DNA from: a virus
IMG/VR virus record: IMGVR_UViG_3300030329_002280
Coordinates: 1 to 20,941 of that record
Strand: one strand, 5' to 3'
Length of the DNA stretch: 20,941 nt
Below are positions 2,801-20,363 of this stretch, piece after piece. Every line of letters begins with the position of its first letter. Within the stretch, counting starts at the first letter, position 1. The notes below the pieces were generated by a model. It was not told the origin of the DNA, did no database searches, and saw nothing but the letters and a program-made list of their open reading frames with translations. The position numbers were made by a program, and so were the translations under genes.

Positions 2801-2939
2801 AATATTGTAATCTCCTATATAAATATTTAATAAATTCCCAAACTAACAATGTAGTTATTATTAATTGCCAATATTCTGATAATGTTAAACAACTATAATA
2901 CATTATATCAGCATCAGCATCATACCAATATTCTTCCAT
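2787..2939 (-). CDS. 50-aa single-pass membrane microprotein
   Basis: A small gene joined to the HA-domain gene by a TAATG junction at 2937-2941 (one base shared), with GGAGG 5 nt before its ATG. The product starts MEEYWYDADADIMYYSC, then has a hydrophobic stretch (about residues 24-38, QLIITTLLVWEFI) and a basic aromatic end (YLYRRLQYYVKI). The acidic N-terminus and positive C-terminal flank suggest a single membrane segment with the C-terminus inside. Its last 14 nt overlap the HTH gene start. The excellent RBS and overlaps at both ends argue it is real. Function unknown. Confidence 0.7.
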   Translation of the reverse strand: MEEYWYDADADIMYYSCLTLSEYWQLIITTLLVWEFIKYLYRRLQYYVKI

Positions 2940-3580
2940 TAGAACCTCCAAGTACCTTTCTGTTCATTCAAAAGATATTTTATATTATCTTCAGAATCCA
3001 TTCCTTGTACTGTTTTAATATTTGCTTCTTTATCTGTTACATACGCAGGACCGTATTCTGGTTCAAAATCAAATCCAATATTTATTAAATTATCAAGTCT
3101 ATCTGGTTTCAAAGTATTCTTTCTATAATGATTTCTTTGTATTAAACACCAAACAGATAATCTATGTAATTTATCATCTATTGGAGAAATCCATTTCCCA
3201 TTTTCAATTCTTTCAGGAAATCTATCCATTCTTATTTGAGGAGGAGTAATTCCATATCTTTCAATATAATTTTTACATTCCTCAAATTTACTATACCAAA
3301 CATTGTTTTGTTTACTCCATAAAAATCCAGGTATTTCATTTAATAAATCATATTTCCATTCAGGTAATGTTTGTTTAGATTTATAATGTTTTAACTGTGC
3401 TGCCCAAGTATATAAACGATGTTCTGCTCTAGGTCTAAATGTTGTAACAGTTCTTTGCATTGGTAATCTACCATTAATTTCTATAAACTTTTTATAAGCT
3501 CTAAGATTTCTCATAAAACTTTTATAATGTTGACTTTTTTTATCAATTTTTTGTTTATACACATATTTCTTTATTTTCAT
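2939..3580 (-). CDS. Protein with two helicase-associated (HA) DNA-binding repeats
   Basis: A 213-aa protein made of two similar units. Unit 1 (about residues 20-88) has NLRAYKKFIEINGRLP ... LYTWAAQLKHYKSKQTL ... LLNEIPGFLW. Unit 2 (about 95-172) has WYSKFEECKNYIERYGITP ... RLSVWCLIQRNHYRKNTL ... LDNLINIGFDF. The order [helix, G-x-P, LxxWxxxQRxxYxxxxL, hydrophobic helix, GFxW/F] is that of the helicase-associated domain (PF03457), a small helical DNA-binding module usually attached to superfamily 2 helicases. No helicase motifs are present, so this is a stand-alone DNA binder. AGAGGT precedes the ATG by 6 nt. It overlaps the microprotein by 1 nt. Position near the origin-like site suggests a role in replication, by inference only. 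Confidence 0.8.
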   Translation of the reverse strand: MKIKKYVYKQKIDKKSQHYKSFMRNLRAYKKFIEINGRLPMQRTVTTFRPRAEHRLYTWAAQLKHYKSKQTLPEWKYDLLNEIPGFLWSKQNNVWYSKFEECKNYIERYGITPPQIRMDRFPERIENGKWISPIDDKLHRLSVWCLIQRNHYRKNTLKPDRLDNLINIGFDFEPEYGPAYVTDKEANIKTVQGMDSEDNIKYLLNEQKGTWRF

Positions 3581-3597: not shown

Positions 3598-3771
3598 TTA
3601 TTTTTCTTCTTGTTCTACTATTTTAGACCTATCAAGTTTAACATGTTTAGTATTAGATATTTTATAAGGATTACCTGTTCTATTCTTTTTATTAGGAACA
3701 GTCTCAATATCTATTACCATCATTGTTCCTTTACGATTACTAATTGATATTATATGTCTTTCTTTACTCAT
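3598..3771 (-). CDS. 57-aa hypothetical protein
   Basis: The product begins MSKERHIISISNRKGTMMVI and ends KLDRSKIVEQEEK. It is basic and soluble, with no recognisable domain. AGAGGTAAA lies about 9 nt upstream of the ATG, the same RBS style as the neighbouring early genes, and the stop is 17 nt before the HA-domain gene. It is the first protein gene after the long non-coding block. The start is supported by the RBS; the function is unknown. Confidence 0.65.
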   Translation of the reverse strand: MSKERHIISISNRKGTMMVIDIETVPNKKNRTGNPYKISNTKHVKLDRSKIVEQEEK

Positions 3772-3790
3772 AATTTATTTACCTCTTTTC

Positions 3791-4712
3791 TAGTTTTTTA
3801 AAATTTTTCATAAAGTTGAGAATACGCTTTATGGTGAACATACTTTCGCAGCCTTATCCTTTACGGTTTGTATTGGTTAACTACTTTTCCACATATTATA
3901 AATATGTAATGCTCATCGCCGGTAGTTATAGACTACCACTCTTATCGTTTGAGCTAATCTACGCATACAGCATAATCTATTTTTTATAGACTACTAATCG
4001 GTTGAAGATGCGCGTCTCCAAACACAAGTCTCGTATACATTACTATTATCCTTGAGAGATAATAAATAGCTACGTGTTATCAGTAGCACAAGGCGACTTA
4101 TCTTTCAAACGCCAAAAGACTCTTTTCGTTGTTATCGTTATGTGATATAATGTATTCATCATCACTTTTGGTAAAAACTACAGCAGGATAAGTGCTTAAG
4201 GTTATTGCTTCATAGTTATTTCTAACCACAAAATACAAATCTTATCCATATGCTCTTCGTAGGAGAAGTTTACATGGTCTTGGTTCTATCATCTAATACT
4301 TTCATATTAGCTAGACATATGCCAACTGAATACAACAATTAAGTTCCTACACTTTATGTCATATTCTAGAGATGTATGCTTTGCATCACTGCTCAATGGA
4401 CTTGCTAAATCCATCTGGACACAATTAAACCCTTGTAAGGAATTTGTTTAACTGTATCCTCGCACTCTCATCCATACTTAAACACCGAAATGTCGCATTG
4501 TATCTGTTTTCGAAAATACAACACTTTATACCCCATTGCTAAGGTTTATTTAACGACTATATGTAGCCGACTCTTGACATCGTAGAGTAACGAAATCTTT
4601 TATTTTCTTAAGTTGATGTAGAAAACTCCCATAAATGAGATAAAACACATCTAAATCTTGTTATAAAGGGCGCAAACTGAGGTAAAACAAACCTGTATCA
4701 AACTAACCGATA
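3791..4712 (-). ncRNA. Candidate large structured non-coding RNA
   Basis: About 920 nt with no credible protein gene on either strand, inside an otherwise densely packed operon. The minus-strand transcript folds into many local hairpins: 4446-4459 with 4417-4430 (14 bp, two G-U); 4396-4414 (8 bp, one G-U); 4293-4310 (7 bp capped by a GAAA tetraloop); 4516-4524 with 4495-4503 (9 bp, two G-U); 4043-4065 (9 bp, two G-U); 3972-3994 (9 bp, two G-U, A5 loop); 4142-4165 (9 bp with a 2-nt bulge); 3921-3937 (6 bp); and a longer-range 7-bp pairing 4241-4247 with 4186-4192. A short ACAU-UUCG-GUGU hairpin lies near 4485. The G-U pairs would be A-C mismatches in a plus-strand RNA, so the minus strand is the RNA strand. 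Size, phage context and ornate folding resemble GOLLD or ROOL RNAs, but I cannot assign a class. Boundaries are approximate. Confidence 0.65.
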
Positions 4713-4729
4713 TTAAGGAATCTGCGCCC
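4668..4729 (-). other. GC-rich hairpin joining the 64-aa gene to the RNA block
   Basis: GGGCGCA (4668-4674) pairs perfectly with TGCGCCC (4723-4729), the most GC-rich helix in this AT-rich area. The 5' arm of the RNA (4723-4729) lies inside the last codons of the 64-aa gene. The 48-nt loop contains an inner AGGT/ACCT hairpin. The 3' arm is followed by TTTATAAC. It could be the 5' closing helix of the large RNA, a processing site, or a weak terminator; the loop is too long for a typical intrinsic terminator. Confidence 0.5.
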
Positions 4730-4907
4730 CTTCAAATGATTTTAATTCTTCGATACTTTTTAATAACCTCTCTACTGTATTATTATTAACTATAAATACA
4801 CGTAATTCTAATGCACTTGGTTCAGTATTAAATCTTCTTTTGAACTCAGTGATATACTCTCTAAATAATTTATCTCTTTCACTATAACTCACTACAATTG
4901 GTTTCAT
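4713..4907 (-). CDS. 64-aa hypothetical protein
   Basis: The product begins MKPIVVSYSERDKLFREYI and has a mixed-charge helical middle (FKRRFNTEPSALELRVFIV) and end (VERLLKSIEELKSFEGAQIP). No family is recognised. GAGGTAAAAGAT precedes the ATG, matching the RBS style of its neighbours. It lies between the DnaA-box cluster and the large RNA block and would be the first gene transcribed leftward from the origin region. Its final codons form one arm of a GC-rich hairpin (4723-4729), so gene end and RNA start may be physically linked. Function unknown. Confidence 0.6.
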   Translation of the reverse strand: MKPIVVSYSERDKLFREYITEFKRRFNTEPSALELRVFIVNNNTVERLLKSIEELKSFEGAQIP

Positions 4908-4936
4908 ATCTTTTACCTCTTTTTATGATTAAATTG

Positions 4937-5007
4937 TTATTCACAGTTTATCCCCATGTTATACACATCAGGATATATATTATACACATTTTATCCACTT
5001 ATACACA
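4937..5007. other. DnaA-box cluster, putative replication origin
   Basis: Six 9-mers matching or nearly matching the DnaA box TTATNCACA lie head to tail in 71 bp: TTATTCACA (4937-4945), TTATCCCCA (4948-4956, one mismatch), TTATACACA (4959-4967), TTATACACA (4980-4988), TTATCCACT (4991-4999, one mismatch) and TTATACACA (4999-5007). Start spacings are 11, 11, 21, 11 and 8 bp, close to helical phasing. A very AT-rich stretch follows at about 5041-5070 and could be the unwinding element. This is the layout of a DnaA-dependent origin. An alternative is DnaA-controlled transcription of the early operon. Confidence 0.7.
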
Positions 5008-5059
5008 TTACATGTATCCTTTTACTTCTTTTATCGTATATAATAGAAAATATAAATAT

Positions 5060-5098
5060 AAAAAAAATGATATAGGGAGCTAAATTAATAACTCCCTA
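5060..5098 (-). terminator. Intrinsic terminator after the 124-aa gene
   Basis: A perfect 7-bp stem TAGGGAG/CTCCCTA (5073-5079 with 5092-5098) has a 12-nt loop. Reading leftward, the stem is followed within four bases by eight T residues (5060-5067). It lies 15 nt past the stop of the 124-aa gene and insulates it from the origin-like site and downstream early genes, which therefore need another promoter or readthrough. Confidence 0.8.
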
Positions 5099-5113
5099 CT
5101 ATAATGAGATTAT

Positions 5114-5488
5114 TTAACCATTATCTCCTTCTCCACTGGTAGTATTACTTTTACTAGTATTACCTTTACCTAGGAACTCTTGATTATGCTTTTGAATCTC
5201 TGCTTCTGGATCTGCGAACTCTAAGTCATTGCCTGTCAATATCTGAATTGCCTTTTGAACATAAAGTGTTCTTTGCTTATCAGCTTCATTTCTTGCTTTA
5301 GACAATTCATAGTCATCTATGTCTACTACATATGTGATACCAGCTTTGTTTCTTCTTGTTTTCTTAGTTGGTACATCCATACAAGCTTCTGCTTTATCTA
5401 AATATACAGCAGCTTGCCTCTTGCGAGAATCTGAAATCATTTTAGTTACATTTGAATCTTCTAATAGATTCTTATCCCATTCACTCAT
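5114..5488 (-). CDS. 124-aa hypothetical protein, first leftward gene
   Basis: A soluble, highly charged protein. The N-terminal part (MSEWDKNLLEDSNVTKMI) leads into a helical region (RKRQAAVYLDKAEACMDV), a basic patch (PTKKTRRNKAGITYVVDID) and a second helix-rich stretch (YELSKARNEADKQRTLYV); the C-terminus is a Ser/Thr/Gly-rich tail. No family is recognised. GGAGG lies 7-8 nt before the ATG. It is transcribed alone from the divergent control region and ended by a strong terminator, as an early regulator or host-takeover gene would be, but this role is only inferred. Confidence 0.7.
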   Translation of the reverse strand: MSEWDKNLLEDSNVTKMISDSRKRQAAVYLDKAEACMDVPTKKTRRNKAGITYVVDIDDYELSKARNEADKQRTLYVQKAIQILTGNDLEFADPEAEIQKHNQEFLGKGNTSKSNTTSGEGDNG

Positions 5489-5519
5489 GTGATACCTCCG
5501 TATCGTTTAATTTAAATTA

Positions 5520-5548
5520 ATTATAACGTAAATCGTTATATACATAAA
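5520..5548 (-). promoter_or_regulatory. Leftward promoter candidate
   Basis: On the minus strand TATAAT (5520-5525) is preceded after a 17-bp spacer by TTTATG (5543-5548), a weak match to the -35 consensus. It lies 32 nt upstream of the 124-aa gene start. Its -10 and spacer overlap the inverted repeat at 5522-5540, which supports this being a regulated promoter. Confidence 0.45.
5522..5540. promoter_or_regulatory. Operator-like inverted repeat
   Basis: A perfect inverted repeat TATAACG-TAAAT-CGTTATA, 7 bp per arm with a 5-bp spacer (half-site centres 12 bp apart). It overlaps the -10 box and spacer of the leftward promoter candidate, where a dimeric regulator would block RNA polymerase. The HTH protein encoded at 2537-2800 is one possible binder; a host regulator is another. 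Confidence 0.5.
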
Positions 5549-5564
5549 CCCCATCATAGGGGGT
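5548..5564. repeat. ACCCC/GGGGT inverted repeat in the divergent region
   Basis: ACCCC (5548-5552) and GGGGT (5560-5564) are separated by 7 nt, standing out in AT-rich DNA. The same block read leftward contains ATGGGGTTTATG, similar to ATGGGGTTATG on the plus strand at 5619-5629, so a related motif occurs on both sides of the control region. It may be a second protein-binding site. Confidence 0.3.
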
Positions 5565-19067: not shown

Positions 19068-20363
19068 ATGGCAAATAAAATACAATTAAAAAGAAGTAAT
19101 ACTTCTTCTGCTGTTCCTACTGTTGCTTATGGAGAGTTAGGATTAAACGTTAATGACAAAAAGATGTATTACGGAAACGCTTCTGGTACTGCAACTGATA
19201 TTTCCGAATTAATACTAATTGCAACTTCATCAGTAAAAGGTAGAGCTTCATTCAGCACAGATAATTTTGCTGTATCAAGCGGAGCAGTAACAATTAAAGA
19301 TAGCGGAATTGCAAACGCTGAATTAGCGGGTAGTATTGCAGATAGTAAATTAAATCAAATTACCACAGCTGGAAAAGTAGCTTTATCAGCATTAGAAATA
19401 GATGGTGCAAGTGATATAAATTCTGCTTTAGCAACTGGTGATTTAATTATAGTAGATGATGGCGCAGGTGGAACAAATAGAAAGTCTACCATTGATAGAG
19501 TAGCAACATTGTTTGCTGGTGCTGGTTTAGCAGCATCTAATGCAGTATTATCAGTAGGAGTTGATGATACTGGTATAGAGATTAATTCAGATGCATTAAG
19601 ATTAAAAGATAGCGGTGTTGTAACAGCAAAAATAGCTGATGACGCAGTTACTTCAGCAAAAATAGCTGACGATGCAATTACTTCAGCACTAATAGCAGAT
19701 AATGCAATTACCACAGCTCACATTACAGATGGAACAATAACTGCTGATGATTTAAAGCAAACTGATGGCGGTGAAGCGGTAACTACAGCAACTATTAGAG
19801 CTGGAGCAGTTACTAATACTGAATTAGGTGCTGATGCGGTTAATGGTGCTAAAATTGCAGATGATGCAATAGATAGTGAACATTATGTAGATGGTTCTAT
19901 AGATACTGCGCATATTGCAGATAATGCAGTAACTGGAGATAAATTAGCTGATAGCATTACAGTTGCTTCAAATCTAACAGTATCTGGAGATTTAACAGTA
20001 TCTGGAAGTACTACTACTTTAAGTGTAGCAACATTAGAAGTTGAAGACACTTTTATTGAATTGAATAAAGGTATTCAAGCTGGTGGAACTGAAGATACCG
20101 TAGATGTTGGTATTTATACTGCTTATGATGCAACAAGTGGTGGTACTGATTTATGGAATTGGACTGGATTAGGTAGAGATGCAAGTGAAGGTAAATGGGT
20201 ATTATTCCAAGGATTAGATACTGAACCTTCAGCAACGCCTGGAGCAGTAAGTATGGGAACAAACAATGCAAGAACTGCAAAATTACAAGCTAATTTAGAA
20301 GGGTTGTCAAACCTTACAAATACTATTGAAAACTACACAATTGATTGTGGTACATTTAGTTAA
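19068..20363 (+). CDS. Tail fibre protein with repeats
   Basis: A 431-aa fibre with AGGAG before the ATG. The N-terminal attachment part (MANKIQLKRSNTSSAVPTVA; YGELGLNVNDKKMYYGNAS) is a common phage-fibre start. Residues about 187-226 carry 10-residue repeats of the AKIADDAVTS type, with further degenerate copies to about residue 300. Then come VASNLTVSGDLTVSGSTTTL and a C-terminal domain with WNWTGLGRDASEGKWVLFQG, a motif I associate with marine phage fibres. It probably forms a trimeric shaft that contacts the host surface. The N-terminus resembles that of the next gene. Confidence 0.85.
   Translation: MANKIQLKRSNTSSAVPTVAYGELGLNVNDKKMYYGNASGTATDISELILIATSSVKGRASFSTDNFAVSSGAVTIKDSGIANAELAGSIADSKLNQITTAGKVALSALEIDGASDINSALATGDLIIVDDGAGGTNRKSTIDRVATLFAGAGLAASNAVLSVGVDDTGIEINSDALRLKDSGVVTAKIADDAVTSAKIADDAITSALIADNAITTAHITDGTITADDLKQTDGGEAVTTATIRAGAVTNTELGADAVNGAKIADDAIDSEHYVDGSIDTAHIADNAVTGDKLADSITVASNLTVSGDLTVSGSTTTLSVATLEVEDTFIELNKGIQAGGTEDTVDVGIYTAYDATSGGTDLWNWTGLGRDASEGKWVLFQGLDTEPSATPGAVSMGTNNARTAKLQANLEGLSNLTNTIENYTIDCGTFS
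19626..19745 (+). repeat. 30-bp tandem repeats in the tail-fibre gene
   Basis: Four tandem 30-bp units start at 19626, 19656, 19686 and 19716 and encode AKIADDAVTS, AKIADDAITS, ALIADNAITT and AHITDGTITA. Degenerate copies continue to about 19960. Divergence among units is mostly synonymous or conservative. Such repeats can change copy number by recombination and alter fibre length. Confidence 0.85.

Follow-up and report, generated by a model that had tools for sequence, protein, structure and literature searches.

The window analysed here is the whole of a 20,941-nucleotide stretch of viral DNA (IMG/VR record IMGVR_UViG_3300030329_002280), a phage contig that carries genes for terminase, portal and capsid. 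Its packaging and head block (terminases, a P22-like portal and an SU10-like capsid) runs rightward, and a block of short genes for nuclease, winged-helix and helicase-associated-domain proteins runs leftward. The closest named phages, as judged by terminase, are only ∼23–25% identical. Between a 57-aa ORF (3598–3771) and a 64-aa ORF (4713–4907) lie 941 nt with no credible gene. This is the largest gap in the window; the next is ∼343 nt and the others are mostly below 40 nt, which bears out the claim of an earlier note that ∼920 nt are gene-free in a genome where gaps are mostly below 40 nt. The longest stop-to-stop frame in the gap (65 codons) is not above that of shuffled sequence, and its two short ORFs have no PHROGs match. 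The limits of the interval in the earlier note, 3791–4729, needed small corrections: positions 4713–4729 fall within the last part of the upstream 64-aa ORF, and the conserved RNA runs from ∼4600 (possibly 4656) to 3813. The features of the locus are as follows.

1664–2392, leftward block: Cas4-type PD-(D/E)XK nuclease
2537–2800, leftward block: winged-helix protein
2939–3580, leftward block: helicase-associated-domain protein
3813–4656, minus strand: putative GOLLD RNA gene, securely conserved from ∼4600 to 3813 (∼790 nt)
4249–4600, minus strand: 5′ domain, a homologue of the cap (5′) domain in typical GOLLDs
4570–4593, minus strand: H-type pseudoknot near the 5′ end of the RNA (stem 4593–4590/4583–4580; loop pairing 4588–4584/4574–4570)
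4464–4570, minus strand: most conserved core of the 5′ domain, from the match to model R1 (see below) and covariation
4569–4565/4558–4554, minus strand: core hairpin whose loop (4563–4560) pairs with 4476–4473, from covariation
4417–4459, minus strand: 14-bp helix (4446–4459/4417–4430) with two G-U pairs, from sequence and MFE
4293–4310, minus strand: GAAA-capped hairpin, aligning with a conserved GAAA loop
3813–4248, minus strand: 3′ domain, full-length match to Rfam RF02032
4186–4248, minus strand: first long hairpin of the 3′ domain, with loop AGAAAU in the window
4121–4185, minus strand: A-rich variable linker, from alignment

GOLLD is a giant phage RNA, and its known relatives self-assemble into hollow, RNA-only cages that are among the largest known. 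The RNA gene in the window shares its strand with the leftward nuclease operon and, with the Cas4-type nuclease, winged-helix and helicase-associated proteins downstream of it, the 'early operon' location proposed earlier is plausible. At its 5′ end, the 64 nt at 4593–4656 are 97% conserved in a near relative, L082.

The minus strand of the gap folds to −235.3 kcal/mol; its dinucleotide shuffles average −200.6 ± 5.3 (z −6.5; none of 20 as low). Folding is strand-specific, as the plus strand is ordinary (z −0.2). The 14-bp helix with its two G-U pairs and the GAAA-capped hairpin are both present as the earlier note described them.

Evidence that the stretch encodes a GOLLD RNA came from RF02032, an Rfam model that covers the 3′ domain only. 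It matches the minus strand from 4248 to 3813 end to end (model 1–416; 120.8 bits, E 6.9e-33). The score falls under the curated gathering cut-off of 150 bits, so a standard annotation run finds nothing; at that threshold Rfam returned no match in the window or in ten relatives. The cut-off is a conservative search threshold rather than a biological feature, and the match lies well within the E 1e-5 used in a published survey. To take the empty run as a sign of a new class would have been wrong. After GOLLD, the next Rfam matches in a permissive search were chance ones (E above 8). The other families named earlier did not hold up: no Rfam model of ROOL, OLE, HEARO, group I or II introns or tmRNA matched 3600–5150 to E 10, and a scan of the window found no tRNA or tmRNA. 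ROOL resembles the RNA in size and phage context and also forms cages (8-mers), but even the permissive search gave no ROOL match. In the printed RF02032 alignment, 70 of the 85 model pairs with letters on both sides are standard, and 30 of those 70 differ from the consensus at both positions. The remaining 15 are broken and nine more are gapped. Alignment shift may account for part of this, and many of the broken pairs are concentrated in a single region that forms alternative local helices. As MAFFT alone misaligned the 3′ domain of the window, covariance-model alignments were used instead.

For the 5′ domain, typical GOLLDs were gathered from viral contigs by a DNA pattern (the typical-GOLLD motif), and 40 of the 41 records so collected and searched exceed the Rfam cut-off (177–325 bits). 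Profiles built on typical 5′ domains recognise members of the new clade, and clade profiles likewise recognise typical copies (E 4e-6 for the window and down to 3e-14 for other members). In a search of 760 kb, R1, a covariance model built from 11 typical GOLLD 5′ cores only, matches the window at 4570–4464 on the minus strand (48.3 bits, E 2.7e-9); it also matches 14 relatives, each with E of at most 7e-12. Among loci that were GOLLD-negative by RF02032 and by nhmmer at E 0.01, R1 matched none, save for a borderline match in the Lak-phage locus L162 (E 0.012). A joint alignment was made of 11 typical and 12 clade sequences. Its 18 pairs in four helices, including the pseudoknot-forming loop pairing, are standard in 96.9% of cells, and 94 cells are changed on both sides, compared with 27.6 ± 4.9 after shuffling. 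These shuffles do not keep relatedness; slid-partner controls, which do, are just 26–48% paired and agree. The helices at the 5′ end were assessed in a clade-only alignment of 11 distinct sequences, where the H-type pseudoknot is paired in 100% of cells and six of the nine pairs in its two helices are changed on both sides; with the next hairpin included, pairing is still 100%, and eight of 14 pairs have both-side changes. Helix covariation among homologues, which the earlier note had named as a check, is strong in both domains. The locus encodes a conserved two-domain RNA with selection on its pairing.

These observations bear on two alternative origins of the stretch. Decayed protein-coding sequence, or a cluster of small ORFs, might be suspected because small ORFs occupy the RNA site in relatives that have no GOLLD. 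The gap, however, holds no long frame and no family match, its structure is strand-specific, and the compensatory substitutions and covariation refute such an origin, which we find scarcely credible. The second alternative is a new giant-RNA class that resembles GOLLD merely by composition or convergent hairpins, as could be argued from the score under the Rfam cut-off and the large sequence divergence. We judge it highly improbable, for both domains are collinear with independent models, the window clade and typical GOLLDs share the short motifs AAATAAAC, TAAAGTG and TCTCA, and it is contradicted by covariation that typical and new sequences show together. The earlier note had left open a member, a distant relative or a new class; its lead to GOLLD was correct, with a full-length RF02032 match, a 5′ domain that matches an independent typical-GOLLD model and covariation in both domains, and it is the distant relative that stands, while the new class falls. 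Judged from sequence, homology to GOLLD seems practically certain, and we put at roughly 0.9 the probability that the stretch is the gene of a divergent GOLLD RNA of ∼790–840 nt. As the window and all detected relatives score under 150 bits, the RNA is filed in a divergent GOLLD clade and not as a core Rfam member.

A GOLLD descendant could still be decaying, or already non-functional, in this one phage. The window copy is one of the most diverged in its clade. It has the lowest R1 score there (48 bits against 59–78), its broken and gapped model pairs were noted above, its P21 arm is altered, and the loop of the 4186–4248 hairpin reads AGAAAU in place of the UCAAAAG of relatives and the consensus. 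Yet the folding energy of the minus strand remains 6.5 sd below that of shuffles, compensatory changes preserve the 5′ pseudoknot and core helices, and many broken pairs cluster where alternative local helices form. We therefore consider decay improbable and keep to a divergent GOLLD gene.

The RNA can be compared with the solved GOLLD env-38, which is 833 nt long and forms a 14-mer by cryo-EM (PMC12286853). The 3′ domain is collinear over model 1–416, the 5′ core is homologous, the length is similar, and the phage location, the GAAA hairpin and a variable linker at the equivalent point are shared. We infer that the GAAA loop at 4293–4310 may be L11a of that structure; the linker segment is disordered inside the solved cage (PMC12286853).

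Besides the window, 17 contigs have an RF02032 match adjoining the same nuclease gene, several of them from identical or near-identical phages; the model had zero matches in 14 control genomes. One clade member, L084, was missed by the fast filter and recovered by nhmmer and R1. Clade members score 106–141 bits with RF02032, compared with 177–325 in the 40 typical, motif-gathered GOLLDs. They also differ from typical GOLLDs in having no tRNA nearby, in mostly lacking P21a and in lacking a Bacteroidota-type promoter. A tRNA scan of the window and related loci found none; the typical locus L147 carries a tRNA-Met. Neighbouring tRNAs are a frequent association of GOLLD, neither universal nor defining. 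When the P21 region is folded, typical copies usually show two hairpins, with CGCAA and GGCA loops, whereas in most clade members the P21a hairpin (CGCAA loop) is missing and the GGCA/GGCG loop alone remains. That loop is GGCA or GGCG in ten clade sequences and GGTA, plus another arm, in three. The window has no recognisable GGCA loop; its P21 arm carries neither GGCA nor CGCAA, and a CGCGCA loop is possible. In the solved cage, self-kissing P21 loops (B8/B9) join the half-shells (PMC12286853), and we mapped L21a and L21b to that structure by their order, so their placement on the sequence is indirect. If this mapping holds, one contact between half-shells would be missing in most clade members. 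For the L20-J13/15 kissing contact, the sequence gave no confident assignment.

The 5′ flanks differ as well. A Bacteroidota-type TAnnTTTG element is found in 15 of 19 typical loci but in two of 12 clade loci, which hints that the clade uses a different host group. In the typical loci (L224–L253) the promoter elements lie 300–800 nt upstream of the 3′ domain, and TAnnTTTG mostly has an upstream TTG. A sigma-70 promoter scan gave fewer sites than shuffles did. GOLLD itself is known; the novelty lies in a divergent clade that the Rfam cut-off conceals and that shows structural losses and exchange of alleles.

That alleles are exchanged is seen when RNA and nuclease are compared pairwise. Where nucleases are 95–98.5% identical, the RNAs are either 89–99% or only 72–75% identical; L105 and L106 have nucleases of 84.8% identity and RNAs of 90.5%. 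Across the set the rank correlation between the two identities is weak (0.19). Between the window and L082 both flanks are 94–99% identical, and 3617–5557 is replaced except for the RNA, which is ∼68% identical in its best block; the small ORFs of this segment are unrelated in the two phages and only the RNA is recognisable. The segment 3617–5557 has the appearance of a recombination cassette. L086 (RNA present) and L088 (RNA absent) have nucleases of 99.6% identity and, at the RNA site, unrelated sequence of similar length. As near-identical phages swap RNA alleles or have none, the RNA behaves as an accessory cassette in an exchangeable locus of uncultivated tailed phages. Four GOLLD-less relatives and L121 were searched at this site for a structured RNA of another kind, and no continuous structured kilobase was found, unlike in the GOLLD-bearing control L082. 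Single strongly folding windows occur in two GOLLD-less relatives (L092:7802–8051, z −4.6; L114:7202–7451, z −3.8; 12 shuffles each).

Two further features lie upstream of the RNA. Four DnaA-box-like TTATNCACA sites are found at 4937–5007 on one strand with ∼20-bp spacing (five such sites in the window, 1.45 expected). Since they are near the GC-skew minimum and a divergent gene boundary, there may be a replication origin a short way upstream of the GOLLD gene. A GGGCGCA...TGCGCCC hairpin at 4665–4727 overlaps the end of the 64-aa ORF and may be a terminator, a processing site or an extra 5′ arm; L137 has a GGCG...CGCC hairpin at the equivalent place.

Searches of other phages gave several side results. 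With the interval as query, BLASTN returned chance matches only from 50,697 phage records. A degenerate 3′-end motif scan of genome contigs gave 11 matches, all in genomes that lack a GOLLD match. Prevotella Lak phage B4 has a weak match over the full length of the GOLLD model (L223; MK250023.1 487145–487583, minus strand; 62.8 bits, E 1.3e-16), possibly a still more divergent GOLLD. A typical GOLLD of 287 bits lies in an unannotated 635-kb uncultured phage genome (L222; LR745206.1 420875–421280), and the 59-kb viral contig G095 (the record of L177) has two, at 19736–20149 and 36280–36673. Vibrio phage ICP1, which has no tRNAs, likewise makes an abundant long ncRNA, of ∼0.8 kb, in a gap devoid of ORFs between gp139 and gp140 (PMC7567579). 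We rejected it as a GOLLD, since the whole ICP1 record gave no match to the family.

By analogy with the solved GOLLD, we argue that the RNA could fold protein-free and self-associate into a hollow cage resembling the 14-mer, held together by A-minor contacts and kissing loops and enclosing the linker. Judged from gene context, the cage would enclose or sequester a host or phage component during infection, in host interaction or counter-defence, as an accessory element outside the core replication machinery. That the RNA of the window forms a cage is, on this analogy, rather probable; an accessory host-interaction role for the cage is more tentative, at somewhat less than an even chance. The accessory, non-core character is suggested by the close relatives without the RNA and by the swapped alleles, and it fits the report, quoted in PMC7567579, that a Lactobacillus brevis prophage can produce phage without GOLLD. 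It is conceivable, if rather unlikely, that the RNA, though a true GOLLD, serves chiefly not as a cage but as a regulator (of ribosomes, for instance), either as a monomer or bound to protein. PMC12286853 mentions a ribosome pull-down with GOLLD, and the P21a hairpin, whose loop on the order-based mapping joins the half-shells, is missing from most of the clade; set against this, other elements of the cage RNA are conserved, with both domains, the GAAA loop and, in most of the clade, the GGCA/GGCG loop.

More speculatively, and in our view doubtful, GOLLD alleles could be exchangeable specificity types, whose differing self-assembly loops would block co-assembly with the cages of co-infecting relatives or let the RNA escape a host factor that recognises its type. 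If so, diversifying selection would act on the RNA cage just as it does on anti-defence or immunity genes. We would like to point out that phages with GOLLD and without detected tRNAs argue against tRNA carriage as its universal role, and that the P21a arm, absent from most of the clade, puts to the test which contacts a cage needs. Natural sets of phages that share a backbone and carry one RNA type, another or none offer a comparative and experimental handle on GOLLD function.
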